DNA from: an uncultured Butyrivibrio sp.
Lineage (GTDB): Bacteria; Bacillota; Clostridia; Lachnospirales; Lachnospiraceae
Assembly: GCA_947167765.1 (NCBI GenBank)
Contig: CAMVJI010000001.1
Span: 1 to 64,000 of the forward strand
Direction of reading: 5' to 3'
DNA length: 64,000 nucleotides
Part shown: one piece after another, positions 5,518-6,477 of the stretch
Position numbering within the stretch: the first letter of the stretch is position 1
Layout of the letters: each line of letters starts with the position of its first letter
Program-made: the position numbers and the translations under genes
Notes under the pieces: model-generated
Databases searched by the model: none
Told to the model about the DNA's origin: nothing
What the model saw: only the letters and a program-made list of their open reading frames with translations

Positions 5518-6477
5518 ATGATCAACAATATAAGGATTAGTCTTACAGATCAGGAAGCAGAAGCTTGGAAGCGGGTAAAAGAGTCAAAGTCAGTGTTAAT
5601 AACATCACACATTCATCCTGATGGAGATGCTATAGGTTGTTGCCTTGCATTAGCAAGGTACTGTGAGTCAAAGGGGATTGTTTCTACAATATGTATTGAT
5701 GACAAAATTTCTGAGTTGTATCAGTTCCTTCCAGGAGTAAAATCATTTAAGACACCGAATAGGCGCTTTAAAGCGGAAACACTTGTGGTGGTTGATACCG
5801 ATGCTAGAAGAATTGGCAGAGCTGGAGAAATGGATGTTGATTATATTGTTAACCTTGATCATCATGGCACCAATTCCAGAGAATGCATGTTGAGGATTAT
5901 TAGAGAGAATTATTCTTCGACAGCAGAAATGCTCTATAAACTATTCATAAGTGATGGATATGAAATAGACAAGCAGACAGCGGAATGTCTATACACGGGG
6001 CTGATTACAGATACTGTTTTTTTTAAGATTCCGCTGCACTCTGGGGATCCTTTTTTTATAGCCGGGGATCTTCTCCTAAGAGGCGTAAACACTTCATTTA
6101 TTGCAGAGAGATTGTCTCAGATAAACCTGGGTACGTTTCGATTGTCTGCGATGGCATATAGCAAACTTGAGAGCTTTAGAAATAATACAATAGTTGGCAT
6201 ATCACTTGATAAAGAATTTGATTTGCTTGACTCCACTGATGAGATAATTGATTCTATTCGATTTATCGAAGGGGTTGAAATTGCTTATCTTATCAAATAT
6301 GAAAAGAATGATAGTTACAGAGTTAGACTTAGATCACAGAAATGGGATTTGAGTATATTTGCTAAACAGCATGGTGGTGGTGGTCATGCTGATGCTGCTG
6401 GATATACAATATTGGCAGATAATTCAAAAAAAGCAACGGATATATTGGTGGGGGACATAATAAAATGGCTGGCTTAG
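5518..6477 (+). CDS. DHH/DHHA1 phosphoesterase (NrnA/pAp-phosphatase-like)
   Basis: 'SHIHPDGDAIG', 'VVDTD', 'NLDHHGTN', C-terminal 'GGGGHADAAGY'. Confidence 0.9.
   Translation: MINNIRISLTDQEAEAWKRVKESKSVLITSHIHPDGDAIGCCLALARYCESKGIVSTICIDDKISELYQFLPGVKSFKTPNRRFKAETLVVVDTDARRIGRAGEMDVDYIVNLDHHGTNSRECMLRIIRENYSSTAEMLYKLFISDGYEIDKQTAECLYTGLITDTVFFKIPLHSGDPFFIAGDLLLRGVNTSFIAERLSQINLGTFRLSAMAYSKLESFRNNTIVGISLDKEFDLLDSTDEIIDSIRFIEGVEIAYLIKYEKNDSYRVRLRSQKWDLSIFAKQHGGGGHADAAGYTILADNSKKATDILVGDIIKWLA

Follow-up and report, generated by a model that had tools for sequence, protein, structure and literature searches.

A divergent DHH phosphoesterase as a putative 3'-phospho-CMP phosphatase in a phosphoramidate gene cluster of an uncultured Butyrivibrio

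Why does a gene encoding a DHH phosphoesterase sit within a phosphoramidate gene cluster in the 64,000-nucleotide stretch of uncultured Butyrivibrio DNA analysed here (the window)? In the O-methyl phosphoramidate pathway of Campylobacter jejuni, the enzymes Cj1415-Cj1418 make CDP-phosphoramidate 3'-phosphate, which has been termed the likely donor (PMC11800397); the decoration (transfer) step was termed currently unclear as of June 2026 (PMC13276843). The window has homologues of all four of these 3'-phospho-CDP-amidate enzymes (Table 1), completing the Cj1415-1418 set: the glutamine kinase (GlnK) and the CDP-amidate 3'-kinase score above their model cutoffs, and the hydrolase, which scores under its cutoff, and the cytidylyltransferase are assigned by synteny. 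As had been predicted from the DNA sequence, the DHH gene overlaps the CysC-like kinase gene by 13 nt. It also opens a tightly coupled block, as proposed, since it is separated by 213 nt from the upstream methyltransferase gene and is followed by further overlaps of 4 nt (kinase/hydrolase) and 4 nt (hydrolase/cytidylyltransferase). The pathway proper begins upstream of this block, with the glutamine kinase and the methyltransferase; homologues of the latter (50-74% identical) adjoin GlnK at many loci. The G+C content of the DHH gene (37.8%) is like that of neighbouring genes. Further along, choline kinase/cytidylyltransferase-like and choline-transporter-like genes adjoin the phosphoramidate genes, an arrangement that suggests two phospho-decorations on one glycan, and a twitch-type radical SAM protein appears to be split into two overlapping ORFs, possibly reflecting a frameshift.

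Table 1. Coordinates of genes in the window and of selected genes at other glutamine kinase loci (L numbers).
Feature	Location	Coordinates	Strand	Remarks
Glyphos_transf-like transferase-like protein, 444 aa	Window	764..2098	+	Possible acceptor-side transferase
L-glutamine kinase, Cj1418-like (GlnK)	Window	2168..4528	+	NF004508, 947.7 bits (cutoff 501)
SAM methyltransferase	Window	4552..5304	+	Methyltransf_11; recurring member of such clusters
Divergent DHH/DHHA1 phosphoesterase, 319 aa	Window	5518..6477	+	ATG start; PF01368 + PF02272; proposed pCp (3'-phospho-CMP) 3'-phosphatase
CDP-amidate 3'-kinase, Cj1415-like	Window	6465..6974	+	APS-kinase family; NF004041, 165.9 bits (cutoff 127)
Gamma-glutamyl-CDP-amidate hydrolase, Cj1417-like	Window	6971..7582	+	Top NCBIfam match NF045546, 134 bits, under cutoff (250)
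Phosphoglutamine cytidylyltransferase, Cj1416-like	Window	7579..8367	+	NTP_transf_3; syntenic homologue in most of 80 GlnK loci listed
Twitch-type radical SAM protein (8464-9541)	Window	8464-8766, 8756-9541		Two overlapping ORFs
Choline-type genes	Window	10080-14256		
CysQ, Chitinibacter tainanensis	L085	12923-13717		233.7 bits, above cutoff (228.8)
CysQ, Holosporales	L113	12465-13220		208.6 bits, under cutoff; 4-nt overlap with hydrolase
CysQ, gammaproteobacterium	L120	7864-8649		142.8 bits, under cutoff; between sulfotransferase-like gene and kinase
Sulfotransferase-fold protein	L112	4915-6525		
Sulfotransferase-fold protein	L120	6539-7870		
Sulfotransferase-fold protein	L093	7245-8630		
GlnK-hydrolase fusion	L011	1492-4539		
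GlnK-hydrolase fusion	L012	820-3855		
Formyltransferase-like gene and ~190-aa gene	L039	7002-8260		
Formyltransferase-like gene and ~190-aa gene	L082	7303-8609		
Formyltransferase-like gene and ~190-aa gene	L113	8267-9545		
Formyltransferase-like gene and ~190-aa gene	L121	768-2028		

The window protein matches both Pfam DHH (PF01368; 63.5 bits, cutoff 28.1) and DHHA1 (PF02272; 36.5 bits, cutoff 25.9), and it passes the DHH/DHHA1 motif test (HxxPDGD, D, DHH, TD and GGGH), with the catalytic residues all kept (H31, D35, D37, D93, D114-H115-H116, D165, R272 and GGGGH286-290). By contrast, PF00459, the inositol monophosphatase fold for which CysQ (TIGR01331) was tested, is absent. The description of the protein as NrnA-like in the original prediction holds for its domain architecture and motifs, but not in the strict sense of NrnA: the protein scores 96.8 bits against the NrnA equivalog model NF053633, for which the cutoff is 350, and the genome encodes a separate housekeeping NrnA, 29% identical to the window protein, on another contig (C306) in the order infB-rbfA-nrnA. 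Indeed, rbfA adjoins the gene in 87 of 88 aligned relatives, whereas the window DHH gene lies in the phosphoramidate operon. The window protein also has the longest terminal branch in a quick tree of 89 sequences (1.96, versus a median of 0.19). In searches of 79 same-genus, 397 same-family and 300 same-phylum genomes, no relative exceeded 36% identity. Extending the orthologue search to 50 genomes that carry the pathway, as well as to plasmids, phages and viral contigs, returned just NrnA-type relatives, again with no more than 36% identity. The separate infB-rbfA-nrnA copy, the model score and the branch length rule out the window DHH as the housekeeping NrnA; it is a divergent NrnA paralogue. 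It shares with NrnA proteins such as Bacillus subtilis YtqI the DHH-DHHA1 architecture, the catalytic motifs, an RxRxR clamp and the GGGH motif, but it is a second copy in its genome, is encoded away from the rbfA operon, and has I171, L173 and H174 in place of an aromatic residue, N and T.

We compared active sites by aligning the window protein with 88 clostridial NrnAs and one Bacillus-type NrnA. The window protein has an RxRxR motif (R268-V-R270-L-R272) that is found in none of the 88 clostridial NrnAs, which have S or G at the middle position. In B. subtilis NrnA, R262, R264 and R266 bind pAp, and the enzyme turns pCp into pC, a product that is not formed by an R262A/R264A double mutant (PMC5593865). 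F162 of the B. subtilis enzyme stacks on the 3' base (PMC5593865); the equivalent residue is I171 in the window protein and Y, F or H in 88 of 88 others, and the adjacent L173 and H174 replace what are mostly N/S/C and T in the NrnAs. Loss of the aromatic would be expected if no 3' nucleotide needs to be held, and the residue pattern as a whole fits an enzyme that would clamp a mononucleotide and remove only its 3'-phosphate. As a counterpoint to this reading, RxRxR has a use in RNA binding too. The same residues bear on the possibility that the window protein is a phosphoesterase for some other substrate, for instance a signalling dinucleotide (linear pApA) or a phosphoramidate- or phosphocholine-branch intermediate. 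There are dinucleotide phosphodiesterases among DHH/DHHA1 proteins, with TmPDE and Rv2837c (PDB) included in the structure-database matches of the window protein, and phosphocholine-type genes lie downstream; nonetheless, given that the aromatic holding the 3' nucleotide is lost, and that the gene is tightly coupled to phosphoramidate genes only, we regard an activity of this kind as improbable.

Our search for similar arrangements used 80 glutamine kinase loci from GTDB genomes; these are the matches listed from a scan that detected more than 570 others. All four core genes are present in 65 of the 80 listed loci. The original prediction had called for a survey of whether DHH genes co-occur with Cj1415-like genes elsewhere, and no such association emerged: using tblastn and a DHH profile, we found no DHH gene in the flanks of any of the 80 listed loci, or in those of six loci from the same family. 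The DHH form of the step is thus a single case, limited to the window genome in everything searched. A dedicated phosphatase is missing from most clusters, so the operon need not include this step. Class-wise sampling for more clusters yielded about one per 290 genomes. The survey also revealed variant loci. Two loci from the family of the window genome (L011 and L012) encode a glutamine kinase fused to a gamma-glutamyl-CDP-amidate hydrolase (~1010 aa), with no pathway kinase or cytidylyltransferase found in their flanks. Three others (L042, L043 and L044) have a GlnK-like gene among housekeeping-looking neighbours; further phosphoramidate genes were not found in the vicinity, and these GlnK-like proteins may differ in function.

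All-against-all clustering of ORFs from the listed GlnK loci uncovered a CysQ-family 3'-nucleotidase gene inside the operon at three of the 80 loci (Table 1). The Chitinibacter gene begins 1 nt past the hydrolase gene and overlaps the cytidylyltransferase gene by 4 nt. A fourth gene, of the inositol-phosphatase family (L102), was not counted because it is ~2.2 kb from the closest cluster gene and scores 38 bits against the CysQ model. Each embedded gene is the top CysQ match of its genome; the chance expectation over 34 genomes, calculated post hoc, is ~0.07 for best CysQ matches (P ~5e-5 for the embedded count, also post hoc) and 0.18 for all family members. In the Chitinibacter and Holosporales genomes, and in the window genome (provisionally, given an assembly that is 79% complete), there is no APS-kinase homologue other than the Cj1415-like kinase. 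Hence, the CysQs of Chitinibacter and Holosporales are not there for PAPS; the gammaproteobacterial case is ambiguous, as a true APS kinase is encoded nearby in the genome concerned. A search for CysQ/IMPase-family genes (PF00459) in the window genome found none, a result that is provisional at 79% completeness, and DHH would therefore be the type of 3'-nucleotidase available there. CysQ, a 3'(2'),5'-bisphosphate nucleotidase, has the same proposed job as the window DHH and lies in the corresponding operon of three other lineages, but its fold (inositol monophosphatase family) is unrelated to DHH. We suggest, from the placement of CysQ genes in unrelated bacteria, that the clean-up step is real. 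This convergence on the same locus speaks against the window DHH being a stray second NrnA-type nanoRNase/pAp phosphatase, brought into the operon by chance or transfer and acting in general RNA/pAp turnover. Such an origin would be in keeping with the intact NrnA catalytic motifs, with the finding of no DHH gene at other listed loci, and with the preference of NrnA enzymes for short RNA (PMC9757072), but the genome already has a housekeeping NrnA, and the window protein is extremely divergent, having lost the 3'-base-stacking aromatic and gained RxRxR. We therefore consider a stray NrnA unlikely.

A sulfotransferase-fold family, the profile of which matches tyrosylprotein sulfotransferase structures (E 3e-15), is found at 36 of 86 loci listed (three examples are given in Table 1, with 33 further loci). 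In 14 of the genomes with sulfotransferase-fold genes, the cluster kinase is the sole APS-kinase homologue, with positions hand-checked against contig ranges. The occurrence of a sulfotransferase fold without PAPS, beside enzymes for the synthesis of a 3'-phosphonucleotide donor, suggests that members of this family move phosphoramidate and would release pCp. There is no sulfotransferase-fold gene within the 64 kb of the window, where the candidate transferase is instead the 444-aa protein encoded at the start of the cluster. A Pfam search of this protein itself gave no match; its homology group spans 16 loci, and one member matches PF04464 weakly, under the cutoff. Some clusters contain a formyltransferase-like gene together with a gene for an unknown protein of ~190 aa, possibly an alternative modification branch.

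We propose that the four pathway enzymes of the window make 3'-phospho-CDP-amidate, as has been shown in Campylobacter and as homology predicts here, and that a transferase passes the phosphoramidate to an acceptor, which by stoichiometry would leave 3'-phospho-CMP (pCp). The two-metal DHH site of the window enzyme would then strip the 3'-phosphate from pCp, yielding CMP for re-use, and removal of pCp may also prevent product inhibition of the transferase; in other lineages, the unrelated 3'-nucleotidase CysQ would occupy the same slot. An alternative possibility is that the DHH enzyme acts on the donor itself, reverting 3'-phospho-CDP-amidate to CDP-amidate, and so would set, or reverse, the pool of active donor. 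Its gene adjoins that of the kinase that adds this phosphate, and the 3'-phosphocytidine moiety is common to the substrate; however, the two enzymes would form a futile cycle, and PAPS failed to compete for NrnA binding in the sulfate system (PMC9757072), making dephosphorylation of the donor very unlikely. A precedent for clearance of a spent 3'-phosphonucleotide is the DHH PAP phosphatase from the sulfate-assimilation locus of a methanogen, Methanothermococcus thermolithotrophicus (MtPAPP), which, like the window DHH, is encoded near an APS kinase, and which has been shown to clear such a product (PMC10322725). MtPAPP differs in belonging to an archaeal family reported to align with other members of the DHH superfamily at the DHH motif only (PMC10322725), and in acting on pAp in sulfate assimilation rather than on the pCp proposed here. 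In a single careful comparison, the pAp phosphatase activity of purified NrnA-type enzymes was weak relative to that of CysQ (PMC9757072), which counts against the proposal, and a specialised DHH enzyme would thus need improved activity.

The recycling of pCp to CMP put forward in the original prediction gains support from the CysQ genes in three operons, from the lack of a PAPS source in the window genome and in two of the genomes with an embedded CysQ, from the sulfotransferase-fold genes and from RxRxR, and is weakened by the count of zero DHH genes at 80 listed loci. We found no paper in the open-access literature, to which our search was confined (subscription papers lay outside it), that assigns a pCp phosphatase, in agreement with the earlier statement that the 3'-phosphatase step is not known to have been assigned in the Campylobacter pathway. 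Taken together, we consider the window DHH likely to be a specialised pCp 3'-phosphatase of the phosphoramidate pathway. More broadly, the phosphoramidate pathway may be the cytidine counterpart of the PAPS system, with 3'-phosphorylation of the donor by an APS-kinase-like enzyme, transfer of phosphoramidate rather than sulfate by sulfotransferase-fold proteins, and clearance of pCp by a nucleotidase that is dedicated to this task and was recruited separately from each of two unrelated folds (DHH in the window genome and CysQ in Proteobacteria); we see the case for and against this wider parallel as evenly balanced.

Phosphoramidate groups are attached to surface sugars, and in Campylobacter this decoration influences phage sensitivity and host contact. 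The three embedded CysQs and the one DHH protein are concrete candidate enzymes for nucleotide recycling, and the sulfotransferase-fold genes are candidates for the transferase, such that transfer and recycling both become testable with purified proteins. Our model also predicts that pCp is a product worth seeking in cells.
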